Shown: piece by piece, positions 4,330 through 19,260 of the stretch
How positions within the stretch are numbered: position 1 is the first letter of the stretch
Layout of the letters: the number at the start of each line of letters is the position of its first letter
The notes under the pieces: model-generated
What the model was told of the DNA's origin: nothing
Database searches by the model: none
Seen by the model: only the letters and a program-made list of their open reading frames with translations
From: a virus
Virus record (IMG/VR): IMGVR_UViG_3300048818_000027
Span: 1 to 27,391 of that record
DNA length: 27,391 bases
Strand: one strand, 5' to 3'
Program-made: the position numbers and the translations under genes

Positions 4330-5109
4330 TTAAGGTTTAGACATCTGATGCTCAAGAATCTTTTTATACTTGGAGTTTTTCTTACACCGTTCAAAAAACT
4401 TCAGTACCGTCGAACTTGATTTCATCATGTTACACGTATGGCATGCCGCGACGCAATTCTTAACCGTGTACCCCTTCGTACTATCGAGCCGGTCAATCCC
4501 GTTATAGGTGTAGTCTCCAATTCGCCCTTTTGTAATCTGAGCTGGCAGAGCGCCGCAATAGAAGCAGTTCTGCTGATTGAGTCCCCGTACCTGCTCCTTA
4601 TTGAGTCGAAAACTAAGTCCACGTAGCTTAGCGCTGTTACGATAGTTGCCGAAGAGGGCATTAAAGGCGGATTCCCCAGGAGGTTTTGAAATAGCCTTAA
4701 GACGGTTCTCTTCATGAAGGCACCCACAACTTTGGCTATTACCGCCGCGTAATACTCCGCCGCTAACCCCGGAGTGAACAGTACCACAATCACAAACGCA
4801 GAGAAAACGCCCACCCGGTCCAACACGCTTAAGAACCTTCCAACGCCCGTAACGTTTTCCGGTTTCGTCTTTACCATAGAAGTTGCCCTTCTTGGCATTG
4901 TGGATATTAGTTCCACGAGCGCAGCCGCAATGTTTCCGCCGGTTCCCGCTCCGCAGATCCGCCCCGGACACCGCTAACTTTCTCCCACAATCACAAACGC
5001 AGTTCCATGTTATTCGATCCCCATTTCGGTCTTTGGATCGTCCGAGCACCGTAAGCTTTCCATACCGGTGCCCGGTTTCGTCCTTTTCATTTCCGTGGTG
5101 TTTCACCAT
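4330..5109 (-). CDS. HNH-like homing endonuclease with tandem zinc repeats
   Basis: 259 residues. Two tandem zinc-ribbon repeats occupy residues 14-63 (C37, C39, C41, then H60-C61-G-C63) and 85-130 (C104, C106, C108, C128, C130). Such repeats are common DNA-binding modules in phage endonucleases. The C-terminal nuclease spans about 180-232 with C182-x-x-C185, N-G-I-D-R-L-D (203-209), G-Y-T-V-K-N-C-V and C223-x-x-C226-N. This is the GIDR variant of the HNH/treble-clef group. It would be a free-standing homing endonuclease with no role in the virion. It is inserted directly behind the capsid gene, and its ATG at 5109 is inside a strong hairpin with no clear Shine-Dalgarno sequence. Confidence 0.8.
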   Translation of the reverse strand: MVKHHGNEKDETGHRYGKLTVLGRSKDRNGDRITWNCVCDCGRKLAVSGADLRSGNRRKHCGCARGTNIHNAKKGNFYGKDETGKRYGRWKVLKRVGPGGRFLCVCDCGTVHSGVSGGVLRGGNSQSCGCLHEENRLKAISKPPGESAFNALFGNYRNSAKLRGLSFRLNKEQVRGLNQQNCFYCGALPAQITKGRIGDYTYNGIDRLDSTKGYTVKNCVAACHTCNMMKSSSTVLKFFERCKKNSKYKKILEHQMSKP

Positions 5110-5149: not shown

Positions 5150-6691
5150 TTAGGAATTGCCTATGTTACTCAGGAGAGCCATTCCGTACGGAGTGTACAG
5201 TTGAAGGACTTCAGCAGCAAAGATCGAGTTCCGCCAGTTCGGTGTCGTCGCTGGCCAGATCACCTGGAAGTAGTCGCGCAGCGTGCGGATAGCTCTCGCG
5301 TAGGGGATGTTGGCCGATGGGTAGGGATTGATTTCCAAGTCGAAGAAGATATGCCCGTCGGGAATGTTCGGATGGATATCAATCGGGACTGGCTTACGAG
5401 CCCCGAGGGCGAAGCGGTTGTTTACCGAGCCGATGTACGCTGCGCCTGTAAGGTTCCCGACGTCACCGGGAGTATTCGAAACGCCGACGCGCCATTCGAG
5501 GCTGGAGCTGGTACCGGAGCTTAGGATCACCTTAGTGATACTATTAATAGAACCGGAGCCTGCCCAGATGTGTGTGGGACTAATTTTGAAATTATCCCAC
5601 ATATACTTAAAAACCGTATTGATCTCATTGCATCCGCCCGCATTGTCACTGGTGAGCACTGCGCCGTCGAGCGAGTTAAAGTACCCGTTACCGGCAACTG
5701 CCTGAGTGATAAGGCCGTCGAACGCGAGCGGGTTATAGCTATAGTCAGTACCACTGCCTGTATAGTTCGCCGCCTGCCCGGTTGTCGGCAGAACCTTGAA
5801 CGTGGCCACGTTGGTAGCGGTGATTTGACTGAAGAACACCGAGCCCGCCGAGTTGGCATTTCCGAGGTACCAGATATAAGACGCAGCACCGGGGATGGCG
5901 ACGGTCTTCATAGTGAAGCTGCCGGTAGCTCCAGAAGCGATATTCGCCGCCGCGCTGAGAGCGCTGATTTGACTAACGCCGCCGTTCATCGTGAGCGTAG
6001 TTCCGTCACCGTTCACCTTAACGTACTGTGGAACTACTGCGCTCCCACCGCCTCCGTTATACGCTGTAGGAGCATTGGTGAGCTGGAGCCCCTGGTAGCT
6101 AAGCGCAGCCACTGCCACATAGTAGTTGCCGCTTCCGGTAGCGCTGTTCAGGCTTCCGCCGGTGATACTAGTTACGCCCACAACGGTGGGAGTGTTAGCC
6201 TGCCCGAACTGGAGCCCGACCCCGGCGGTACCAGAGTTACCCCAAAGGATACGAGGTTCCTCCTGCAAGATCATGGCGTCAAGGGCCATTCTCTGGGCAG
6301 AAGAGCGAACGTCTTCGTACCCGTAACCGGCCCACTCGGCGAACCACGTCACGTTCGAGTCTAAGGCGAGCAGCTTGTAAGTCGCTACTCGTGGAACGAC
6401 GGTCGGCGTGAGCAATGCACCACTCTGTCCTTCCGCCGCCTCGGCGGGCACATTACCTGCGTTGGGACTGGTGACTGCATTCCAGTGAACAGCCAAGCCC
6501 TGACCGCCGAGCGGGTTGGTGGTGCCGATGCGGGGCATCGTCTTACGGATGGGAGCCAATACCGGATACTGGTACTTGGCGCGGGCTTCCAGATCATAGA
6601 ACGTCAGTCCGGTACTAGCGGAGATTCCGCCGGCCTTCTGAAGTTCCAGGAAGCGTGAAATGGTGCCTTCGATATTCTGTGCTAGATTCAC
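5150..6691 (-). CDS. Major capsid protein, HK97 fold with inserted Ig-like domain
   Basis: 513 residues in the position expected for the capsid gene, immediately after the protease/scaffold. The N-terminal 165 residues carry features of a large group of phage major capsid proteins: an N-arm, then F-Y-D-L-E-A-R-A-K-Y-Q-Y-P-V-L-A-P-I-R-K, later E-G-Q-S-G-A-L-L-T-P-T and a long helix at about 125-143. Residues about 167-312 look like an inserted Fn3/Ig-type beta domain (Y-Y-V-A-V-A-A-L-S-Y-Q-G, I-P-G-A-A-S-Y-I-W-Y-L-G). The rest returns to capsid-like sequence and ends with F-A-A-E-V-L-Q-L-Y-T-P-Y-G-M-A. The start is a GTG with AGGAAAA seven bases upstream. The inserted domain would sit on the capsid surface. 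Confidence 0.8.
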   Translation of the reverse strand: MNLAQNIEGTISRFLELQKAGGISASTGLTFYDLEARAKYQYPVLAPIRKTMPRIGTTNPLGGQGLAVHWNAVTSPNAGNVPAEAAEGQSGALLTPTVVPRVATYKLLALDSNVTWFAEWAGYGYEDVRSSAQRMALDAMILQEEPRILWGNSGTAGVGLQFGQANTPTVVGVTSITGGSLNSATGSGNYYVAVAALSYQGLQLTNAPTAYNGGGGSAVVPQYVKVNGDGTTLTMNGGVSQISALSAAANIASGATGSFTMKTVAIPGAASYIWYLGNANSAGSVFFSQITATNVATFKVLPTTGQAANYTGSGTDYSYNPLAFDGLITQAVAGNGYFNSLDGAVLTSDNAGGCNEINTVFKYMWDNFKISPTHIWAGSGSINSITKVILSSGTSSSLEWRVGVSNTPGDVGNLTGAAYIGSVNNRFALGARKPVPIDIHPNIPDGHIFFDLEINPYPSANIPYARAIRTLRDYFQVIWPATTPNWRNSIFAAEVLQLYTPYGMALLSNIGNS

Positions 6692-6727: not shown

Positions 6728-7615
6728 TTAGGACCGCTGCATGAGCTGCTCGATCCCGAAGAAGGGATTCCCGGATTGGGGCTTGAGATCCACGAGGACC
6801 TTCTGAACGGCGTCGCCCTGTGACTCCGTCGATTTAGTGAACTCGGGATTCGGCGTAATGCCGTCGGCTAATACCGGACTGACCGGAAGAGCGACGGTGA
6901 TAGGGTTTCCGTTGGTCTGTCCGGCAACCTTTATCACCATACCGGTACCGTCTGCCGACTTCTCGACGGCAAAGCGAGCAGGGACCTGCTGAGTAGAGCC
7001 GGTCTGGGGAGCTGCCTTATCCAATGCAGCGGTAAAGCCTCCGGTGAAGCTACCGACGATCTGGGACAGACGGCGATCACTGTCCTTCTGCATCTTGGCG
7101 ATGGATCGTTGATTGTCCTTATTCATCTTCTCCATCTGGCGCTGGAAGCCCTTTGCCATCTTCTCGCTCTTATCCCAATACGGAGCGGTAGGATGCTGGG
7201 TAGCAGCGGCGAGACCTTCGTCCACGCGGGTATTCGCTTCACTCTCATACTCTTCGATAGCGCCGTGGATCAAATCATGTGCTTCACCGATGCCCTTGGC
7301 AGCGGTCAGCACGCCCTTGTAGCTATCGAGCAGAGCAGTGTCTACTTCTTCCCGCTCTACCTTATTCAACAAACCGACGCCGTTGTTCTTCTTTGCCGCA
7401 TCTTCATCGCCGTCTTTATCGTCCATGGCATCCTTCATCTTGTCGAGATTGTCCATGAGATCTTCATGGTGCTTGGCAGCTTTCCCGAAGCCGTCCTTCA
7501 CCTTTGCCATATGTTCGGCGCGCTTGACCAAGTTGCCCGCAAAAACGTTGAGTGTCTCGGGGGTGGCCTTGTGCAGGCGCTCCGCCAGTTCGTTCGTCAG
7601 ATTTACCGTGGCCAT
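6728..7615 (-). CDS. Nested scaffold protein from internal start (Met528)
   Basis: The same frame as the 822-residue protease gene has an ATG at 7615, eight bases after a near-perfect AAGGAGGTG (7624-7632). It would give a separate 295-residue protein starting M-A-T-V-N-L-T-N-E-L-A-E-R-L. The product is a charged helical scaffold region plus a C-terminal beta-rich tail. This is the organisation of lambda C/Nu3 and many other phages, where a scaffold is made from an internal start of the protease gene. Direct evidence is the ribosome site and frame. The scaffold role is by analogy. Confidence 0.65.
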   Translation of the reverse strand: MATVNLTNELAERLHKATPETLNVFAGNLVKRAEHMAKVKDGFGKAAKHHEDLMDNLDKMKDAMDDKDGDEDAAKKNNGVGLLNKVEREEVDTALLDSYKGVLTAAKGIGEAHDLIHGAIEEYESEANTRVDEGLAAATQHPTAPYWDKSEKMAKGFQRQMEKMNKDNQRSIAKMQKDSDRRLSQIVGSFTGGFTAALDKAAPQTGSTQQVPARFAVEKSADGTGMVIKVAGQTNGNPITVALPVSPVLADGITPNPEFTKSTESQGDAVQKVLVDLKPQSGNPFFGIEQLMQRS

Positions 7616-9196
7616 TTGTTGACCACCTCCTTTTTCAGTTTGTTCGGAAGCCTTCTTCAAAGCCTCCTTCTCCGCGTCAGCGCGGGCTAACAGTGCGAAA
7701 TCTTTTACGATACTACCCGTAGTATACTTCTTTCCTACCAACCGGGTCATGTGCTTAGGACCTTCCCACTTCTCGCTCGGCAGGTCCATGCCCTTACTCT
7801 CATACAGAGCTTTAAGCTTAGTCTTTGCTTCTTCCTTATCGGGGCCGGAGTACGGCTGGCCGCGATAGTTACTATGGAGCGCTGCCCATGCGGCTCCCAT
7901 CTGGGCAGTACTGTTCACAGGCAGGTGCGTCTTACCATCCGGCTCCGTGACCAAAAACTCCTTCTGTAGATCAGGATCACCTCCTTCGATGCGTTCTACT
8001 TCGTCTTCATCATCCTCGCAGTAGCCACACTTCGGGCAGCAACCATCCTCGTCCAGATCATCATCACCACACTCCGGGCAGACGCGCTTAGCGAGCTTGC
8101 CGAAGACCTTAGTACAGTCCTCGCATTTCCCCGTACTCCCGTCGTATTTGTCGGAGCCGCAGGCGGGGCACATCGGCTTGCCGCCCTTAGCAAGCTTCTC
8201 CGCCTTCATACACATCTCGCACTTGTCGGTCTTGCCGTCGAACTCCTTACCGCAAGAGCAGGTCTTCATCGAGTCTCCTTTCGCGATCTTCTCCGTCTCG
8301 CTCTGCTGGGCCGCACGCATACCGTCCGCTGCGTTCTTATGATAAGCGGCACGAGCACCGTGTATCATCGCGAACGCTGGGCTATCAGAGCCGTGAGCAT
8401 CAGCGGCTTTCTGGTGCAGGTCCGCAGCACGGTCATGGTTCTCGGGCGTCGGATCATTACTCGCGTCATGGCTAGCAGCCTCTGCGTGGAGGCTTGCTGC
8501 TTCGGGAGCCTTGCCTTCCGCTCCGGCGGCGGTAGCCTTGCCGCGCAGTATGTTGGCGGTGTGTGGGCCACCCTCGTCGGTGGTCTGCGGAGCCCACTTC
8601 GCTCCGGGGTCGCGCGCTTGGTCGGAGGCGTACTTCTCCGTCGTGGGTTTAGATAGACGACCTCGCCGAGCGCTTAAACCTCCCTCCGCCCCGGCGAACT
8701 TGCGCAGTTCCACCGTCTGGTCAAGCTTCACATGGCTAAACACCGCGCTAGGAATGCACGGATTGTCCACCAAGGAGATTTCAGAAAGTGATGGTGTATA
8801 GCGCATCACCCCTTTGTTGTCGGGGTCCGGCCATCTCTTCAAATAATCCCCACCCACACTGAAACCAGTGTAAACTCCCTCCATGCACTTCTTAGCTTCT
8901 ACGGGGTCAATGATGTGGGTCGCGATGTCCACCGTCTTGTTGGCGTCGTTGAACTCGATGCCCGTAGCTTTCCCGGCGGCGATCTTGCCGTGCATCGCCC
9001 GGATATTGCCTTGGCTCTTCCCGTCGCTCCGTGTGATGGCTTCGTCGCGCCACTTTTCTATCTGCGGACGGGCGGTGGCGTAGTCCATTATTTCTTTGGT
9101 TTTGTCCACGACCTCCGCAGCCGCCGTACCGAACACCTTGCAGGTTCCGTCGGGCTGCTCGACCGTCTTGGTTATCTGGGCAAATATCTCTTTCAA
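6728..9196 (-). CDS. XkdF-type prohead protease fused to zinc-ribbon and scaffold regions
   Basis: 822 residues. The N-terminus is a prohead protease of the XkdF/HK97 gp4 type, with a likely catalytic triad of His69 (A-M-H-G-K), Ser113 (T-G-F-S-V-G-G) and Glu139 (L-S-E-I-S-L-V-D-N-P). Residues about 185-305 are an Ala/His-rich linker. Three zinc ribbons follow at about 313-329, 343-361 and 373-390. Then come a small domain (425-475), and from 528 a highly charged helical region (about 528-730) and a beta-rich tail to 822 that look like a scaffold. The scaffold would fill the procapsid and the protease would cleave it and the capsid arm. The start is a TTG with GGAGC upstream. Two internal in-frame ATGs have strong Shine-Dalgarno sequences. 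Confidence 0.8.
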   Translation of the reverse strand: MKEIFAQITKTVEQPDGTCKVFGTAAAEVVDKTKEIMDYATARPQIEKWRDEAITRSDGKSQGNIRAMHGKIAAGKATGIEFNDANKTVDIATHIIDPVEAKKCMEGVYTGFSVGGDYLKRWPDPDNKGVMRYTPSLSEISLVDNPCIPSAVFSHVKLDQTVELRKFAGAEGGLSARRGRLSKPTTEKYASDQARDPGAKWAPQTTDEGGPHTANILRGKATAAGAEGKAPEAASLHAEAASHDASNDPTPENHDRAADLHQKAADAHGSDSPAFAMIHGARAAYHKNAADGMRAAQQSETEKIAKGDSMKTCSCGKEFDGKTDKCEMCMKAEKLAKGGKPMCPACGSDKYDGSTGKCEDCTKVFGKLAKRVCPECGDDDLDEDGCCPKCGYCEDDEDEVERIEGGDPDLQKEFLVTEPDGKTHLPVNSTAQMGAAWAALHSNYRGQPYSGPDKEEAKTKLKALYESKGMDLPSEKWEGPKHMTRLVGKKYTTGSIVKDFALLARADAEKEALKKASEQTEKGGGQQMATVNLTNELAERLHKATPETLNVFAGNLVKRAEHMAKVKDGFGKAAKHHEDLMDNLDKMKDAMDDKDGDEDAAKKNNGVGLLNKVEREEVDTALLDSYKGVLTAAKGIGEAHDLIHGAIEEYESEANTRVDEGLAAATQHPTAPYWDKSEKMAKGFQRQMEKMNKDNQRSIAKMQKDSDRRLSQIVGSFTGGFTAALDKAAPQTGSTQQVPARFAVEKSADGTGMVIKVAGQTNGNPITVALPVSPVLADGITPNPEFTKSTESQGDAVQKVLVDLKPQSGNPFFGIEQLMQRS
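7624..7632 (-). promoter_or_regulatory. Strong internal ribosome binding site for the nested scaffold
   Basis: AAGGAGGTG on the minus strand lies inside the protease/scaffold coding region and ends eight bases before the in-frame ATG at 7615. It is the best Shine-Dalgarno match seen in the window, better than that of the full-length TTG start. Confidence 0.7.
8275..8281 (-). promoter_or_regulatory. Second internal ribosome binding site, before the zinc-ribbon region
   Basis: AAAGGAG on the minus strand ends five bases before an in-frame ATG at 8269 (Met310, M-K-T-C-S-C-G-K). A product from here would start at the first zinc ribbon and lack the protease. The exact boundary with a domain makes real use plausible, but it is less certain than the 7615 start. 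Confidence 0.45.
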
Positions 9197-9216
9197 CGTT
9201 TTGCTCCGGTTTCAGG

Positions 9217-9429
9217 TTAGACGATCTTCGCCGTATAGTTAGATATGGCGAATACCGATGAAGAGGCATATAAAAACATTGCGGATCTTCTTATTCTAGT
9301 AAACCACATGAGGACTTTATTACTAGAACCAAGACCGTGGTCAAAACAATGGATTACCGCGCTCGCAAAAGCTAAATTCGACATAGATACCCACTTCATG
9401 GATTAAACGATCTTTGCCGTCACGTAGTT
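9217..9429. repeat. Imperfect duplicated 3' end of the bacterioferritin-like gene
   Basis: TTAGACGATCTTCGCCGT (9217-9234) and TTAAACGATCTTTGCCGT (9403-9420) match at 16 of 18 positions, and both continue to a TAGTT after a short gap. On the minus strand they encode N-Y-T-A-K-I-V-stop and N-Y-V-T-A-K-I-V-stop. The second is the true C-terminus of the gene at 9403-9870. The 186 bases between them hold a plus-strand small frame and look less GC-rich than the surroundings. This suggests a cassette insertion or an internal deletion in a duplicated gene. Confidence 0.5.
9245..9406 (+). CDS. Possible reverse-oriented small gene, 53 residues
   Basis: An open frame on the plus strand, opposite to its neighbours, beginning M-A-N-T-D-E-E-A-Y-K-N-I-A-D-L-L and ending D-I-D-T-H-F-M-D. 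The composition is that of an ordinary soluble helical protein, better than the 60-residue minus-strand frame that covers the same bases (9217-9399). It has no Shine-Dalgarno sequence. TATAGT at 9234-9239 lies six bases before the ATG, so a leaderless transcript is conceivable. The stop TAA overlaps the opposite stop of the bacterioferritin-like gene. No family is recognised. It may be a moron-like insertion. Confidence 0.35.
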   Translation: MANTDEEAYKNIADLLILVNHMRTLLLEPRPWSKQWITALAKAKFDIDTHFMD

Positions 9430-9870
9430 CACTTCACCAACAAAACTAATAACGTCGATCTGGCGCTCCAGCCACTTGTAGTGCTTCTCAAGCTGATGGA
9501 TCACGTCCTTGCAATCGTGGGCAGAGTCGGCGTCTTCGAGCTGTATGAACTTCACGTAGTCGGCGTTCAGCTTGGCCCACAGCGCTTCTACAGGTTCGAG
9601 GACCTTTTCGAACAACCCGCTGTAGGTCGTAAAGTCGTCAGTAGCCGTAGCGCCGCCGAGCGTTGGTTTACCGCCAAGAAACAGGATTTGCTTGACGCAG
9701 TGCTGTGCCCAACCCTCGGCACACTCACCAAGATCCTGCACGTGTCCGGCGGGGGATTTCAGGTCCTTGTGCTTGAGGACCTTAGATGCGAGGTGACACA
9801 GCGTTGCTAAGCTCCAGAACAACGTAGCCGAACTTTGGAACCCGGCGATCACTTCGGGGTTGCCCTTCAC
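9403..9870 (-). CDS. Bacterioferritin homologue lacking ferroxidase and haem ligands
   Basis: 155 residues that align with recalled bacterioferritin (Bfr, about 158 residues) almost without gaps: M-K-G-N-P-E-V-I at the start, I-L-F-L-G-G-K-P-T-L at 62-71, H130-Y-K-W-L-E-R-Q-I-D-V-I, and N-Y-V-T-A-K-I at the end. Bfr forms a 24-subunit iron-storage shell. Here the diiron ligands appear lost: Glu18 is Phe, Glu51 is Ala, His54 is Trp, Glu94 is Val and Glu127 is Leu. Only His130 remains. The haem ligand Met52 is Glu. The four-helix fold is probably kept for another purpose, perhaps a structural or assembly role. The start is GTG, overlapping the upstream TGA with GAGGAG before it. The alignment was done from memory of E. 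coli Bfr. Confidence 0.75.
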   Translation of the reverse strand: MKGNPEVIAGFQSSATLFWSLATLCHLASKVLKHKDLKSPAGHVQDLGECAEGWAQHCVKQILFLGGKPTLGGATATDDFTTYSGLFEKVLEPVEALWAKLNADYVKFIQLEDADSAHDCKDVIHQLEKHYKWLERQIDVISFVGEVNYVTAKIV

Positions 9871-10031
9871 CGAGTACTCCTCACCGGAGGCTGTTGACGA
9901 AGCATACGCACAATTGCTTCTGCAATCTGCTTATCACTCTGGCGTGGAAGGTTCGGATCTCGCCCGGCAGCGATGTAATCCCCGGCGATCTTACCGTCTT
10001 TAGTGTATCCGTTCTTATCAGGCGTTTCCAT
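9867..10031 (-). CDS. Small basic hypothetical protein, 54 residues
   Basis: M-E-T-P-D-K-N-G-Y-T-K-D-G-K-I-A-G-D-Y-I to P-P-V-R-S-T-R. A good AAGGAG lies six bases before the ATG at 10031, and the stop overlaps the GTG of the bacterioferritin-like gene. The ribosome site and coupling support a real gene. No family recognised. The 65-residue open frame that overlaps it in another register is a shadow. Confidence 0.65.
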   Translation of the reverse strand: METPDKNGYTKDGKIAGDYIAAGRDPNLPRQSDKQIAEAIVRMLRQQPPVRSTR

Positions 10032-10040
10032 GTTCGCTCC

Positions 10041-10688
10041 TTATACCGGACTCCCGATGTACTCGACCCAGATGTCAACTACACCCGCCGTGAATGCCGT
10101 CGTCGCAATGGTGAAGGTGATCGGGGCAGCGGCCGACAGATGGATAAAGGAAGACGCCGTGTTAGAAGTGATCAGGGATTGCTGGAAGCTCGCCGTAGTG
10201 AGGGACGCCACCGCAGTCGCTCCTAACAAGCTCGCCTTGTTCCCTCCGCTTCCCCAGCCGATAGACATAGTGCCGCTCGCACCTACACCCGCCGTAGAAA
10301 CATAGATATATGAGTTGACGACAATACCGTTAAGCGGCAACGTACAACCGTTGGTAGGAGTGATAGTGCTGATCGCTCCGCCGTCAACCGCGAAGTTGTA
10401 CTGCGCGTGGCAGTATTTCAGAAGACTCTTACCGGTCATCGCCTCCGGTACGAACGGAGGAAGGTTGCCGATTGGGGCGGCCCCTGGTAGGGAATTACTA
10501 ACGGCGATAAGCGGGACTTGGTAGACCGTTCCCCCCACGCAGACTCCGAAATACTGAAGGCCGCCAGATACCGTAGGAACGAAGGTCGGAATGGAGTTGG
10601 GAGTTTGGGTGCAAGTAACCGGAAGCTGGGCGAATGCGGCAGCAGTCAACACCAGCGTTAGTAAGACTACGTTTCGGAAAATTTTCAT
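10041..10688 (-). CDS. Secreted beta-rich protein in the head gene cluster
   Basis: 215 residues with a clear Sec signal peptide: K-I-F-R-N then a hydrophobic V-V-L-L-T-L-V-L-T core and A-A-A-F-A-Q, cleaved near residue 20. The mature part is Ser/Thr/Gly/Ala-rich with regular hydrophobic strands ending V-V-D-I-W-V-E-Y-I-G-S-P-V, much like phage fibre C-terminal sandwiches. The open frame extends to 10754, but the ATG at 10688 is chosen because AAGGAA sits eight bases upstream and the signal peptide starts there. It lies between the coiled-coil gene and the 54-residue gene. An exported product is odd at this place. Function unknown. Confidence 0.65.
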   Translation of the reverse strand: MKIFRNVVLLTLVLTAAAFAQLPVTCTQTPNSIPTFVPTVSGGLQYFGVCVGGTVYQVPLIAVSNSLPGAAPIGNLPPFVPEAMTGKSLLKYCHAQYNFAVDGGAISTITPTNGCTLPLNGIVVNSYIYVSTAGVGASGTMSIGWGSGGNKASLLGATAVASLTTASFQQSLITSNTASSFIHLSAAAPITFTIATTAFTAGVVDIWVEYIGSPV

Positions 10689-10817
10689 GTTTAGATTCCT
10701 TAGTTTCAGTTTGGCGCTACGGGGCGTTTTAAGCGCTCGACTACCCTTACCCACCCCTAAGTACCTTTTAACCTACGGGGCGCAGCCTTAGGGTCCGTAC
10801 GCGCGGTAAATACGGTT
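10689..10817 (-). repeat. Intergenic dyad element, copy B
   Basis: A 129-base gap holding GGCGCTACGGGGCG, then TTACCCACCCCTAAGTACC (10747-10765) and CCTTAGGGTCCGTACGC (10786-10802). The middle motif matches 17973-17991 at 18 of 19 positions and the right motif matches 4307-4323 at 15 of 17. CTACGGGGCG occurs twice, and GCGCT/AGCGC form a small inverted repeat at the left. The start-proximal end carries the AACTGAAAC leader. There is no terminator-like U tract. Confidence 0.55.
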
Positions 10818-11138: not shown

Positions 11139-12056
11139 CTATTCCTTTGGGACTGTGCCCGGATTTGGATTTTGGTAACTTTGCTGAAGCTCGGGGAGAC
11201 CAGGAAACCGAGCGGAACCGAAAGATACGAACTCAGGTTCGTCGTCCTTGGAATACATCGTTATCCCGGTAACAAGCATGACACGCCCGTTAAAATTCCC
11301 ACCAACATACTTCTCAGTGGCTTCAGGCTTTACATACGCAAGGGTAGCATGAGGTTGGTAGTCGAAATTCGATTCCTTAAAGCTCCCCTCCGCTTCGATC
11401 TCCGTGTTGATACGTTCCAGCTCCAGCGAAGAGACGAACACGATGATGGGAGCGGCATCGTCGCTCTGTGGGGTAGGAGCGAAAGAGGCGATTTCACCGA
11501 ACGTAATGCTAAAGGGCTTCTGAGAAGCGATATAAGCGCGGATGCCACTGAAATCATCACCCTGAACTCCGTAGCGAACTGTAACATGAAATTCGCTTTC
11601 CAAGCCATGTCCAGCTAAGTCCTCCTTCGCTATACACCCCTGTGCAAGTAACATCTCTTTCCCGACTTCAGAATCCTTAGGGATATCCACCTGCGTCATA
11701 CCGTAGGAGTACTTCGCAAGGTCGCCGCCCTGGTAGAACTTCTCCACGTCCGCACCCACTTGCCCGTCCGAGATGATGAGGAATTCCTCGCCCCGAGCCA
11801 AGTCGAGAAACGCGGCGGCGGTGTCAGCCACGTCCGAAGGGGCGGAAGCGGCCACATCTTCCATCGCCTTAATAACGTCGGCAGGTTCCTCAGTCCACCC
11901 CTTACGGAAGAAAACAGTAAGTACGAGTCCGGCATCCTTCAGCCCGCTGAGATCGGGTCTGGCGGAATCCTTGGCATATCGGATAAGGTCGGAGTACCCC
12001 GCGTTACTCGCGAACTGCCCAAGCAGATCGGTATCGTTAGCTAGTTCAATGCTCAC
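11139..12056 (-). CDS. 2H phosphoesterase-domain protein next to the portal
   Basis: 305 residues. The C-terminal half carries the two H-x-T motifs of the 2H phosphoesterase (LigT/2'-5' RNA ligase-like) superfamily: His157-Val-Thr159 in E-F-H-V-T-V-R-Y-G and His236-Ala-Thr238 in Q-P-H-A-T-L-A-Y-V. Their spacing of 79 residues is normal. These enzymes cut 2',3'-cyclic or 2'-5' linked nucleotides, and the phage anti-CBASS protein Acb1 belongs to this superfamily. The N-terminal 110 residues are a separate helical module of unknown role (S-N-A-G-Y-S-D-L-I-R-Y-A-K). The GTG start overlaps the portal stop (GTGA). The activity is supported by motifs. The substrate is not known. Confidence 0.7.
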   Translation of the reverse strand: MSIELANDTDLLGQFASNAGYSDLIRYAKDSARPDLSGLKDAGLVLTVFFRKGWTEEPADVIKAMEDVAASAPSDVADTAAAFLDLARGEEFLIISDGQVGADVEKFYQGGDLAKYSYGMTQVDIPKDSEVGKEMLLAQGCIAKEDLAGHGLESEFHVTVRYGVQGDDFSGIRAYIASQKPFSITFGEIASFAPTPQSDDAAPIIVFVSSLELERINTEIEAEGSFKESNFDYQPHATLAYVKPEATEKYVGGNFNGRVMLVTGITMYSKDDEPEFVSFGSARFPGLPELQQSYQNPNPGTVPKE

Positions 12057-15000
12057 AGGTTCTTACCTCGAATAATGCTGCGTAGATCGGCTAAAGATAC
12101 CGGGGTCATAGCGCCAACACGGAAGCTACCGAACCCGGCACGATAATAGTACTTCGTGTTTCCTCCGCGCTTATCCGCGACCACGGTGTACCCGATCAAC
12201 GCATCTTTCTTTTGCTCATTGAGCTTACGAGCCAGTGCGGTCTTAGACATCGTGATCTTGTCGTTTTTTGCGTCAACCATGGTCTTGAGTTCCACGGCGA
12301 TCTTCTCGTCGCGAAAATCAAACGCTGAGTTATCCCTCGTGCGCTCTAACCCAAGAGCGCGAGATACGATAGCTTCCTGCTGGTCGGCTGTCCGCTGTTT
12401 CTCAACGTTACAAGGAACTCGTGCGGCAAGTGCGCGTTGGGCACGTTCAGATAGAACGATCTTAACAGGTTCCTCGCTACCTCCGGTAGTCCAGCGCCCG
12501 TGCTCATCACGCTCTTCATCCTCATTACCCTTTTCCAACGCATCGTGCTCTACTACCTTGATGGCCGCGTCCCAGTAGACGTTCTTGATTCCATAGTTAT
12601 CCCGGAGGTGGGATTCTACGGCAGCTTGATCGAGCATCGCCCGATCCCCATGGGTCCAGTCAATTTCAGAAGGGGCTGCATGCGTAGCGATGCGGGCGAA
12701 GTCCCCGTTAGTCTGGGCATAACCACGATTTACCGCGTCGTACTTCAACTTCTTTCCAGTCGCCGCATGGGCTTGGTCTAGCACACGGTAATGTGTAGGG
12801 CGTGCGGCGGGTTTAGCGGTAGCCGAAGCCGCCTTGGAATGGACGCCGATAACCGGATGCTGAACCCACGCGATGATCTTCTTTCCAGTACCTGGATGAG
12901 GACCGCTTCCAGGTCCGCCCTTTAACAGCTTCTCGGCGGGGGCTTCGAGACTCGGCGAAAGCACACAGCGGCAATTAACGTGGGCGGGCGGGGCATCATC
13001 CCCACTGCTGAAATCGTCGTCTATCCCAATAACTCCCTCATCTTCGTTGTCGGAGCACTCGTCACAAACATCAGGGTTATTACTCGTCTGCCAACTCTTG
13101 CCGAGCACCACGCCGCTGCGTTTCCAACCGCCGAGAGATCCCTGGCTCGATGCGGCGTTCGTCTCCGTCTGCGCAATCATCTGGGCGCGGCCCTTGCTGA
13201 AGTAGAAGCTGTCACGAATTTGCTGCTTCAGTTCGGCGGGAGTCTTGCCGTCCTCATAACTCTTGGCGATCAGGTCTCTGATGCCTTCGCGGGTGGTTTC
13301 CGTGATGGCCCATTGAGAATCGGGATTGTCGACGAGCTTTCCATCCGCGTCCCACTTCTTACCCACGAGTTCCGCCCCACGGGCGCGTGCGTAGTCGCGG
13401 GCGTCCTTGTTGAAAAGGTCGAACAGATTCTCGTTGGTAACTTGTAGCGTTTCCAAAGCGGTTTTCCCAGCGGTGAGAAAAGAAGCGTTCAGCGCATCTG
13501 TGACATCTTCGATAACAGGATCGTGAGCGTCGTCCAAATCGAGGCTGTCAACAATTTCATCGGTAGACTCGCCGTCCCCGTAAGCTTTCGAAGCCTCGCT
13601 CGAAACCGAATCCGAAAGGGCATCCAAGTTCTCTTCTAGTGCCTTCTGGATCTTCTTGCGCGCCTTACGAGCCGCATCGCTTTCGCTAGGCTTCTTTACC
13701 TTCTCCAACTCAGTACTCAACGCGACGAAAGGGCGGGGCTCGTTTTCGCTACCCCCGACCGGCAGTAACTTCAAAAGCTTCTGGACTTCTTTCTTACTAA
13801 CAGCGGATAGGTCTTGCTTCTTCTCGCCGCCCTTAGCGCTCTTGCTTGGCTTCCCGAATCCCTTGCTCGGCGCTCCACCAGAGTTGGGATTCTTGCTGCT
13901 CGGAGCTTTACCTCCACCGTTAGATGGAGGACCGGAAGTACCCCCAGCAGTGTCATCATCAGGGTTACCGCCGAAACCGGGAGGCGGAGCAGGCGGCTGC
14001 ATCCCTATTTCTAAAGCTTCTTCAAGGAACACAGGGCCGGTCGGTAGAAACACAATGGGCTTGTCGCCGATGTCCCCCTCGTACGGCTCCTTGCCCTGAT
14101 CGTCGCGCACCTCGTTTAGTGTCGTGGTGCAGTTGCGGACCCCCATGTCGAATATCTTCGACTGGGTGGCCGGGTCGCTTTCCGCGCTGGTGTCATACAC
14201 GTGCTCGATGTCTCCGAACTCGTCACCGAAGTACTCGCGCACACAGCCAGTTAGAGTCGCGCTTATGCGCCCCAGCGTGGGTAGCTTACCCTCTTCTACC
14301 GCTGACTGTTGAATCTGCTGCGATGATGCCCTATTCATTTGTTTGACAAGAGCATTCGGAGCTACGGAAAAAGCATAACAAGAAACGCGGGCCAGCCAAT
14401 CGTCCCGGTCATCCTTGATCATCGGATCTTTAGTCTGTGTAATAGACTTAGCTTCAGGGATGAAACGAACGCGACGCTTTAACGCCACGTTACCCTTCAG
14501 TTCGTCAAAGAAAGCTTGAAATTGAAGAATCTGCTGCGCTCCCATCTCGGCGCTGAGGCTGATGATCATCTCCGGCACATTTCCTTCGGTGTAAAGTGCC
14601 TGCTGACTAACCATCCGATTCATGCCGATCAAGATTGTGTTGATGATCTGCTCGACCGGACTATAACCATATAGGCGGGATACCGTCGGGTTGAACGGTT
14701 TGTATACGAGCGGAAGACATCGATGCTGTTTCCCGTCCGAGTTCAATGTCCTCTTACCCACCTTACAATCTAGACATAGGCCACTCGTCATATCAAGCGC
14801 TGGACTGCCCTTAATTATTTGCTGGTAGGCTGGGTTCGGAGGAGCTGGCCTCCAACCCTGCATGTCGATCAGCGGCTTTACCGTCGCCCCGTCGATCAAA
14901 CGAAGCCCGAGTATCTCGAAGTCCTCATCGAGAACTGGCCAGATAGAGAGCGCGTCGGTAACGAGCACTTCCTCGATAAGCATGTTCATCCAATCGAGGA

Positions 15001-15472
15001 AGTCATACTGTTTATCGGGTCGGTAGAAGAAGTCATTGAGGAACCCAATTCGCTTGTCGCCAGCATTGCGTGCCTTATGAGCGACCTTGCTCTCCCCGCT
15101 CTCCATCTTCACGCGCCACATCTGCGGCATCTCCAACATCTGGGCCTTACGGGTCTCGATGCAAAGCCGGACGATGTCATAACGCGCGAGCTGGCGCAGC
15201 GTGTTAAAATCAACGCTACCGGGCTGCTCCTGCCGCGGCTGGAAATACAAGTTGGTACCGAACGGATAGTCAAACGTGCGAGGCAGAGTACCGGGAGGCG
15301 CGACCGGAACCATCGGCTGGTTAGGCGACATATACCCCGTTGAAGAGGTTACTCCATCAATCAGATGCCGCATGCCCGTAGCGATGGCGATCTGACCTTG
15401 GGAGATCGGGTCCATTATCGGATCGGCAGTATCATTCATCAACGCTTTGTGTAATCCAGAAAGAAGCGCCAT
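12053..15472 (-). CDS. Portal-MuF fusion with C-terminal PD-(D/E)XK-like nuclease domain
   Basis: 1139 residues. Residues about 60-490 are a phage portal protein (D-I-V-R-L-C-I-E-T-R-K-A-Q, L-Y-G-Y-S-P-V-E-Q-I-I-N-T, later N-E-V-R-D-D-Q-G-K-E-P). A C233/C236/H250/C252 set may bind zinc. A Gly/Pro linker follows (about 500-570). A MuF-type head morphogenesis domain ends in H-V-N-C-R-C (831-836). Then a K-G-G-P-G-S-G-P linker (851-858), an unknown region and a R-D-E-H-G-R-W linker (988-994) lead to the last domain. There Asp1052 and Glu1061-Leu-Lys1063 fit a PD-(D/E)XK nuclease core. MuF proteins with C-terminal toxin domains are known in temperate phages. The usual portal alone has 400-550 residues. 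Confidence 0.8.
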   Translation of the reverse strand: MALLSGLHKALMNDTADPIMDPISQGQIAIATGMRHLIDGVTSSTGYMSPNQPMVPVAPPGTLPRTFDYPFGTNLYFQPRQEQPGSVDFNTLRQLARYDIVRLCIETRKAQMLEMPQMWRVKMESGESKVAHKARNAGDKRIGFLNDFFYRPDKQYDFLDWMNMLIEEVLVTDALSIWPVLDEDFEILGLRLIDGATVKPLIDMQGWRPAPPNPAYQQIIKGSPALDMTSGLCLDCKVGKRTLNSDGKQHRCLPLVYKPFNPTVSRLYGYSPVEQIINTILIGMNRMVSQQALYTEGNVPEMIISLSAEMGAQQILQFQAFFDELKGNVALKRRVRFIPEAKSITQTKDPMIKDDRDDWLARVSCYAFSVAPNALVKQMNRASSQQIQQSAVEEGKLPTLGRISATLTGCVREYFGDEFGDIEHVYDTSAESDPATQSKIFDMGVRNCTTTLNEVRDDQGKEPYEGDIGDKPIVFLPTGPVFLEEALEIGMQPPAPPPGFGGNPDDDTAGGTSGPPSNGGGKAPSSKNPNSGGAPSKGFGKPSKSAKGGEKKQDLSAVSKKEVQKLLKLLPVGGSENEPRPFVALSTELEKVKKPSESDAARKARKKIQKALEENLDALSDSVSSEASKAYGDGESTDEIVDSLDLDDAHDPVIEDVTDALNASFLTAGKTALETLQVTNENLFDLFNKDARDYARARGAELVGKKWDADGKLVDNPDSQWAITETTREGIRDLIAKSYEDGKTPAELKQQIRDSFYFSKGRAQMIAQTETNAASSQGSLGGWKRSGVVLGKSWQTSNNPDVCDECSDNEDEGVIGIDDDFSSGDDAPPAHVNCRCVLSPSLEAPAEKLLKGGPGSGPHPGTGKKIIAWVQHPVIGVHSKAASATAKPAARPTHYRVLDQAHAATGKKLKYDAVNRGYAQTNGDFARIATHAAPSEIDWTHGDRAMLDQAAVESHLRDNYGIKNVYWDAAIKVVEHDALEKGNEDEERDEHGRWTTGGSEEPVKIVLSERAQRALAARVPCNVEKQRTADQQEAIVSRALGLERTRDNSAFDFRDEKIAVELKTMVDAKNDKITMSKTALARKLNEQKKDALIGYTVVADKRGGNTKYYYRAGFGSFRVGAMTPVSLADLRSIIRGKNL

Positions 15473-15478
15473 TGTTCT

Positions 15479-16870
15479 TTATCCGGCGAACGCGATGTTA
15501 TTACCCTGCCCTAGATCGGTAGACACGAACAATTGTAGGTTCGGCTGCGGCCCTACCCGCCCCTGAACCTTAAAGGTGTTCGGCCCTAAACGAAAATCAC
15601 CAGATGACATATCAGAACCCGCTGATGTACGCAGAAACTCCAGATCAAGATATCCACCGCAAGCCTTGTCGATTATTACTTGAGCGACATGGGCCTTCAC
15701 GCTTAGATCATCCGGCCATGGATACGGGAGTGCGGCGCAGTTTGAATAGCAGCGAATACCGTATGAACGGAAAGTACTGACCTGTGCCGTAGTAGGTTCC
15801 ATGTTAACCTTGAGTCCGACATTGTTCACCTCCCACATCATGTTACAAACCGTCACAAACGACGGGCAGTAATGGTATGCTCCATTATCTACGCCTTGAA
15901 TTTGTACTTGGACATTCCAATTCGTGGTACTCACAGAATCAATGGTGATATTCGATCCAGGGTTAACGAAACTTCCGCTGGAGTATCCGACGATCAGAAT
16001 GCCCGGCACGTCGGCCATCGTACCCGTAGGATTCGGGCGATTCAGGTAAACGTACTTCCCACCAACCACACGGACCTGATTCGCCCCGGCGAAGACGAGC
16101 GCGGGGGCGAGCGGGGGCCTACCAGTCGCGGCTCCGGTAGGTCCGTATCCCCCTAAGGCATAGCAGTTTTTGAGGTAGATGCCCTCAGGGATTGCGCTCG
16201 GGATCGTCTGAGTCGGTGAAAAGCTGAACGCCGTTCCCTCATTTCCAAATACGCAGACGTCCCCAATTTCTGGCACGTTTGACAGGGACCGGAAATCGAG
16301 TACAGGCGGCGGTGGGTTCGCGGCTGTCAGCGCAGGATTGTTCGCGAATCGCTGGCACATGCTCACGTCGAAGGATAGATGTCCGCCTACTCCCGACGAT
16401 CCCCTCACCCACTGGATTCCCGGCCCCATAGCCACAGGATCTACCGTCAGAAACGGCCCAACGTCGCTAGGCTCATTTCGGGCTCTAAGAATAGATGCCT
16501 TTGCACTAGCCCCGACGCCCATCATCCCTTCGCCCATCAGTTGCACGCCAGGGGCAGGAATCGAGAGCGGACCAGAGAGGGTGACCCCGCAACCGGGCAC
16601 GAACACGGTGGATGGATAGCCGGGCTTGGCGGCGTCCGCCATGGCACGGATGATTGCGGCGGTATCATCCGCGTCACCTGCGCCACCGTTCTGCCGAGCC
16701 CCATAGTCCCGTATGTTGAGCGCAATGGGTGAGAAGGATGCCGAACCACCTATCGGGACTGGCGATGGTACTGGCGCGCTCGGAAGGGCCGCAACTGCGA
16801 ACTGTACGGCCTGCTCGATTGTAGCGGTGAGATCGGTGGCGAGTGTGATAACGGTAGGGTTTGTGCTCAT
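15479..16870 (-). CDS. Tailspike with pectate-lyase-like beta-helix
   Basis: 463 residues. The motif N-I-R-D-Y-G-A-R-Q-N-G at 52-62 and D-D-T-A-A-I at 68-73 are typical of the opening of pectate lyase 3-type right-handed beta-helices found on phage tailspikes. The rest is a long run of short strands, as expected of a beta-helix. It would bind and probably cut a host surface polysaccharide. The first 30 residues (M-S-T-N-P-T-V-I-T-L-A-T-D-L-T-A-T-I) probably attach it to the virion and resemble the 37-residue protein at 17184-17297. Its ATG overlaps the DUF6527-like stop. No signal peptide is present. Confidence 0.7.
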   Translation of the reverse strand: MSTNPTVITLATDLTATIEQAVQFAVAALPSAPVPSPVPIGGSASFSPIALNIRDYGARQNGGAGDADDTAAIIRAMADAAKPGYPSTVFVPGCGVTLSGPLSIPAPGVQLMGEGMMGVGASAKASILRARNEPSDVGPFLTVDPVAMGPGIQWVRGSSGVGGHLSFDVSMCQRFANNPALTAANPPPPVLDFRSLSNVPEIGDVCVFGNEGTAFSFSPTQTIPSAIPEGIYLKNCYALGGYGPTGAATGRPPLAPALVFAGANQVRVVGGKYVYLNRPNPTGTMADVPGILIVGYSSGSFVNPGSNITIDSVSTTNWNVQVQIQGVDNGAYHYCPSFVTVCNMMWEVNNVGLKVNMEPTTAQVSTFRSYGIRCYSNCAALPYPWPDDLSVKAHVAQVIIDKACGGYLDLEFLRTSAGSDMSSGDFRLGPNTFKVQGRVGPQPNLQLFVSTDLGQGNNIAFAG

Positions 16871-18606: not shown

Positions 18607-19260
18607 CTACTCCTTTATAGAATTCATCGCTAAGGCATATAGTGCCATCGAGTGCCACTTCGCGGGATTTAACCAATCTCGCCCAACAGGTTTGACACAC
18701 ACCGAAGTCAAATCCACCGCATGGACGTAGGGGAACTCCGGCGACCAGAACGGAACTTCAGCCACCGGATCGCCTATTACCTTACCCATATTGTGGTAAG
18801 AAACCGTAGGTACGCGCTTAATCAGATTGGCCAATGTCGTCATTCCCGAGCGAGGCTCACCCCATGCAACCCGCTTTGTCACAGAACCTGGCCTTACTAA
18901 CTCCAACAGCCCCGTTAGGACCGCGCCCCGCGCTGCCCCTAGAGAATGCCCAGCAATTACATAGGGGGCCTTAAATCGTTCCAAAATCTCATCGCGGACG
19001 GCCTCCATGCCGAGAAAGAACCCAGTGTGGACGAACCCAAGACCAACGTGCTCGATGAGGGTCCATTCAGGAAGGACTAGGAAGTCTCGTAGCCAATCCC
19101 CCGGCGTCACCGAGCCTCTCAAGATGATGTGCGTAACGCCATCAAGCACCTTTACCGTCCATACCACTGGATCGCCCAGAGGCGTATGGCAGTCCCATCC
19201 TGGATCAGGGGCGCAGCCATAAATTGCGAGCTGCCACTGGGCGAGACCTGCGTTAGTCAC
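18607..19260 (-). CDS. Class 3 lipase
   Basis: 217 residues with the hallmarks of lipase class 3 alpha/beta-hydrolases: I-I-L-R-G-S (45-50) with D-W-L-R-D-F (55-60), the nucleophile elbow G-H-S106-L-G-A, Asp164 in G-D-P-V-A-E-V-P, and His203 in W-H-S-M-A-L-Y. These give a full Ser-Asp-His triad. The family hydrolyses ester bonds of lipids. In a phage it could attack host membrane lipid or a lipid-linked surface layer, or act on lysis. No signal peptide is visible. The GTG start overlaps the upstream stop. Assignment is firm and the role is inference. Confidence 0.75.
   Translation of the reverse strand: MTNAGLAQWQLAIYGCAPDPGWDCHTPLGDPVVWTVKVLDGVTHIILRGSVTPGDWLRDFLVLPEWTLIEHVGLGFVHTGFFLGMEAVRDEILERFKAPYVIAGHSLGAARGAVLTGLLELVRPGSVTKRVAWGEPRSGMTTLANLIKRVPTVSYHNMGKVIGDPVAEVPFWSPEFPYVHAVDLTSVCVKPVGRDWLNPAKWHSMALYALAMNSIKE

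Follow-up and report, generated by a model that had tools for sequence, protein, structure and literature searches.

What is a bacterioferritin (Bfr) homologue that lacks the residues for binding metal and haem doing among the head genes of a phage? Viral contigs seem to carry Bfr genes only rarely, and where they have been proposed they are read as iron genes: the Bfr gene on a Bathyarchaeia virus contig was proposed to be an auxiliary metabolic gene, functional in iron oxidation (PMC10904782). The gene described here likewise lies on a virus contig, but it is devoid of the ligands and sits in a head module. If our reading of it is true, a head-operon gene that is maintained while its Bfr-like product has neither metal nor haem sites would clearly exemplify viral fold reuse, and the phage protein would provide a simple test case in which cage assembly is separated from iron chemistry. 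The window analysed, 27,391 bases long, is a virus contig from IMG/VR (IMGVR_UViG_3300048818_000027, hereafter the focal phage), probably a partial record; a second phage, L005, was found via a capsid-protein search, its capsid protein being about 70% identical to the focal one.

A bacterioferritin homologue in a phage head operon

The sequence-only reading had aligned the protein with Bfr along its full length and picked out the MKG, ILFLxGxP and HxxWLE/NY motifs; all of these motifs are found, and a profile-profile alignment (hhalign) of the two phage proteins with Bfr runs through all 155 columns with zero gaps (E 2.6e-19). The Pfam Ferritin family (PF00210) matches the focal protein with 25.6 bits (E 1.3e-5) and the L005 homologue with 43.4 bits, both above the gathering cut-off of 24.5 bits, and the NCBIfam bfr model (TIGR00754) matches residues 1-154 (E 6e-6) with 26.3 bits, below its equivalog cut-off of 125.55 bits. 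Against the PDB, the best phmmer match of the focal protein alone is a bacterioferritin (E 2e-4), and a two-sequence profile that includes L005 reaches E 9e-12; the significant profile matches are all named bacterioferritin, ferroxidase or Bfr-type ferritin, and the best sequence match is chain M of a Shewanella hetero-Bfr (SoBfr12, 9iig). Judged from its sequence, the protein descends from Bfr. It shares with E. coli Bfr and TIGR00754 its length, a gap-free alignment over 1-155, the MKG start, ILFLxGxP, WLE, GxxNY, Glu128 and Glu135, and differs from them in its low identity (21-28% to cellular Bfrs) and in its ligand positions. Sequence evidence points to Bfr rather than Dps; phage Dps-like and ferritin-like proteins in BFVD have a similar helical bundle, and a structural search of BFVD returned zero significant matches (best E 8.8e-3).

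The gene (9403..9870, minus strand) encodes 155 amino acids, from a GTG start at 9870 to a TAA stop at 9403. The start overlaps, as GTGA, the TGA stop of an ORF of 54 amino acids read from the sequence (9867..10031, minus strand; zero matches in a Pfam search), and a GAGGAG motif resembling a Shine-Dalgarno site lies directly 5' of the GTG; overlap and motif together suggest that translation of the two is coupled. The Bfr-like gene and the head genes are all on one strand. Upstream lies a fusion of a portal protein with a head morphogenesis domain of Mu-F type (12053..15472, minus strand); downstream are a presumed head maturation protease/scaffold gene (6728..9196, minus strand), assigned by position and motifs without a named family match, the gene for the major capsid protein (5150..6691, minus strand), with homologues annotated as major head proteins in phages of Alicyclobacillus and Arthrobacter, and a head-tail adaptor gene. 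The position near the protease/scaffold gene that had been claimed for the Bfr-like gene is borne out, the gap being 206 nt (9197-9402). Searches of PHROGs and PADLOC added nothing of use.

The Bfr-like gene of L005 sits in the matching slot, directly upstream of a protease/scaffold gene whose product is 69% identical to the focal one over the N-terminal 200 amino acids of the latter. The gap there is 37 nt, and the difference of about 170 nt is apparently due to a small insertion in the focal phage (9217..9402, minus strand, 40% GC) that is missing from L005. An 18-bp direct repeat, 186 bp apart, is found at this place: positions 9217-9234 duplicate the final 18 nt of the Bfr-like gene (9403-9420), and repeat and insert together (9217-9420) resemble a small mobile insertion by which the 3' end of the gene is rebuilt.

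Elsewhere on the record, an ORF of HNH endonuclease type (4330-5109, minus strand; PHROG E 2e-31) lies directly downstream of the major capsid gene, and a class 3 lipase domain protein (PF01764) and a pectate-lyase-like protein (PF12708) are encoded upstream of the head genes (18607-19260 and 15479-16870, minus strand). The portal/Mu-F fusion has, after a GGPGSGPHPG linker, a C-terminal extension that by eye resembles PD-(D/E)XK nucleases, and its GGPGSG motif recurs in the L005 protease/scaffold protein. The head operon also encodes a 2'-5' RNA ligase/2H phosphoesterase domain protein (PF13563; 11139-12056, minus strand) with weak similarity to Acb1; by eye, a 2H-like protein is present at the start of the related locus L009 as well. 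The product of 10041-10754 (minus strand) may be a decoration-type protein; its N-terminus resembles a signal peptide, and a region of it (HAQYNFAVDGGA...) recurs in locus L008 (5193-5822).

Ligand positions and predicted fold

In the numbering of E. coli Bfr, the ferroxidase ligands are E18, E51, H54, E94, E127 and H130, and haem is bound by Met52. Five of the six ferroxidase ligands had been claimed to be changed, together with the haem ligand, and this we find as well: the substitutions are E18F, E51A, H54W, E94V and E127L, H130 is the sole survivor, and Met52 is replaced by Glu; Tyr25 has become Cys. The L005 homologue has L18, C51, A54, E94, V127 and R130, along with E52, and retains E94 only; because the surviving ligand differs between the two phages (H130 versus E94), they have no metal site in common. 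Mean hydropathy over the six ferroxidase sites is +1.4 and +0.7 in the two phages versus -3.4 in E. coli Bfr. By alignment, the canonical ferroxidase and haem residues are missing from the focal protein which, with its core replaced and its haem ligand gone, would no longer be a ferroxidase or haem protein of Bfr type. Loss at the ligands was not significantly greater than at other positions conserved in Bfr (Fisher p 0.33), and it is therefore part of a broad divergence that includes the active site; only 14/54 of the non-ligand positions conserved in Bfr are kept in both phages.

Cellular Bfrs offer a comparison, albeit in a biased sample (37 proteins from 33 loci, which either were the best matches or came from genomes of Beijerinckiaceae). 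At least two ferroxidase ligands have been lost in 5/37, all of which keep Met52, and the five proteins without Met52 all retain the six ferroxidase ligands; the two phage proteins are the only ones in the set that lack both Met52 and a full ferroxidase site. An intact Bfr gene mostly lies next door to the ferroxidase-dead cellular subunits, and a second ferritin gene was not seen on the partial focal record. Bfr2 of M. gryphiswaldense lacks the ferroxidase site, yet it forms and stabilises a hetero-24-mer (PMC6529640). Like Bfr2 and chain M of SoBfr12, the phage proteins are Bfr subunits with a damaged ferroxidase site; unlike them, they carry Glu52 in place of Met52. Bfr2 supports haem binding.

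Two residues that matter for assembly are kept in the focal protein, Glu128 and Glu135, which in Bfr stabilise the 24-mer, double mutants forming dimers (PMC3179174). Other assembly residues of Bfr are changed (R61Q, R30K, Y114A/P and D56), among them Arg61, the partner of the kept glutamates, which is Gln in both phages. Glu128, Glu135 and the region of the E helix would be compatible with a ferritin-type cage. A first AlphaFold model, from two sequences, was set aside as its alignment was too shallow; a model from four aligned sequences (pLDDT 83) places helices at 5-34, 38-65, 83-110, 114-144 and 146-152, at the positions of those in Bfr. With this model, every top Foldseek match listed is a Bfr-type chain (best E 6e-5), the VIA-align rows have unrelated helical bundles on top, and the match of the structural aligner starts with model residue 7 paired to Bfr residue 34. 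Global superposition on Bfr by Foldseek is poor (TM ~0.47, rmsd ~20 A), so that structure prediction does not confirm the fold apart from the sequence; we do not count this against a Bfr topology.

Maintenance and distribution of the gene

The L005 contig begins inside its Bfr-like gene, whose 5' end is missing, and the encoded protein is 41% identical to the focal one. Differences between the two genes are greatest at third codon positions (0.66 vs 0.45 and 0.38), pN is 0.41 and pS 0.79 (saturated), values comparable to those of the neighbouring head-tail adaptor gene, and GC3 resembles that of the neighbours. Identity is concentrated in helix A (13/19) and helix D (19/31), with only 4/28 in helix C, and the motifs common to both phages (WSLAT..HLASK.LKH in helix A, DSAHD.KDVIHQ.EK...WLE.Q.D.I in helix D) are mostly absent from Bfr. 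The synonymous excess, the conserved helices A and D and the kept Glu128 and Glu135 argue that the gene is maintained and not decaying. It is conserved in two phages at one head-operon position, which supports its maintenance by selection.

Beyond these two phages, zero homologues were found at profile level in about 40 loci, phage and prophage, whose capsid proteins are related (32-50% identity), nor in two loci with related protease genes. Several of the former are truncated, and since they end before the slot a missing homologue is uninformative there; in the four loci closest by capsid besides L005 (L004, L007, L008 and L009) the slot is readable and holds other proteins. Slot contents elsewhere include, by eye, coiled-coil-like proteins, a 2H-type protein and a transposase-like ORF, and in Brevundimonas phage Polewnik the portal gene adjoins the next head gene. 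With some 40 related loci lacking a homologue, any role of the Bfr-like protein would be accessory. Viral scans that used the focal protein, the profile of both members or either of two mixed Bfr alignments recovered zero members beyond L005 (n=2), such pattern-based scans reaching only part of the possible members. A prophage search of genome contigs also yielded zero homologues, and among 398 Pseudomonadota genomes scores were at most 52 bits, the best 30 matches being ordinary or hetero-type Bfrs. Canonical Bfrs on L084 and L085 were set aside as, lying beside an integrase, they seem to be host flank, a weak match in G018 (12.9 bits) was taken as chance, and the Bfr of 'Bacteriophage sp.' MT835709, whose ligands are nearly complete and whose surroundings are not recognisably phage, is probably from a bacterial contig.

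Possible roles of the phage protein

With the iron and haem residues gone and a second virus keeping the altered gene in place, an iron-storage protein appears to have been given a different task, probably a structural one. The sequence-only reading, which proposed reuse of the 24-mer-forming fold, perhaps as a scaffold, decoration or decoy subunit, is supported in part: in Bfr ancestry, ligand loss and head-operon position, while the 24-mer and these roles would be possibilities. We hypothesize that a tailed phage took over a Bfr-derived subunit whose metal-binding core gave way to mostly hydrophobic or small residues and whose haem ligand was lost, while selection may have retained the helical bundle, the motifs of helices A and D and the two cage-stabilising glutamates. 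Such a subunit would most likely self-assemble into a ferritin-type oligomer and could serve as an accessory head protein (decoration, internal protein or assembly factor) made together with the portal, protease and capsid proteins, a head role being suggested by gene position and co-inheritance. This metal-free accessory head protein is our best explanation, held with slightly less than even confidence; that a Bfr cage subunit has become, in this phage lineage, a structural, metal-free component of the head or of its assembly pathway is a doubtful proposition.

The main rival, in our judgement unlikely, is a decoy or modulating subunit that co-assembles with host Bfr and lowers its ferroxidase activity or releases iron during infection. 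We keep it in this place because ferroxidase-dead subunits co-assemble in M. gryphiswaldense, and it would suit the retained E128, E135 and MKG as well as the PDB match to a hetero-Bfr chain; however, mixed interfaces are doubtful given the low identity to cellular Bfrs and the changes at R61, R30, Y114 and D56, the haem-bearing dead subunits of cells have Met52 where the phage proteins do not, and the gene lies among head genes, which are usually expressed late. Somewhat less probable is a ferritin fold with another metal or ligand site that serves virion metal supply or DNA protection. A candidate site is the helix D segment DSAHDxKDVIHQxEK, presumably near the three-fold channel in Bfr, where the two phages agree in H118, D119, D122, H125 and E128, most of which Bfr does not have, but conserved surface charge would also fit protein contacts.

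That the gene is a relic, a host Bfr gene once acquired and now decaying without function, we consider very improbable, even though nearly all enzyme residues are changed, the insertion adjoins the 3' end and most related phages lack the gene: intact ORFs persist at the same location in two phages whose capsid proteins differ by about 30%, with a synonymous excess and common helix motifs that Bfr mostly lacks. Least credible, and largely refuted by alignment, is a Bfr that still works through ligands at shifted positions. The conservation of E49, E52 and E128 in both phages might speak for it, but the profile alignment set beforehand as a check did not restore the ligands: it is gap-free, and helices B and D are held in register by the ILFLxGxP and WLE anchors; moreover, E128 is also an ordinary non-ligand residue of Bfr, and most of the six sites carry hydrophobic or small residues. 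In the open literature we found no paper on a phage ferritin within the virion; for phage AXL1, traces of host bacterioferritin have been reported from the virions (PMC9206674) and may reflect co-purification.
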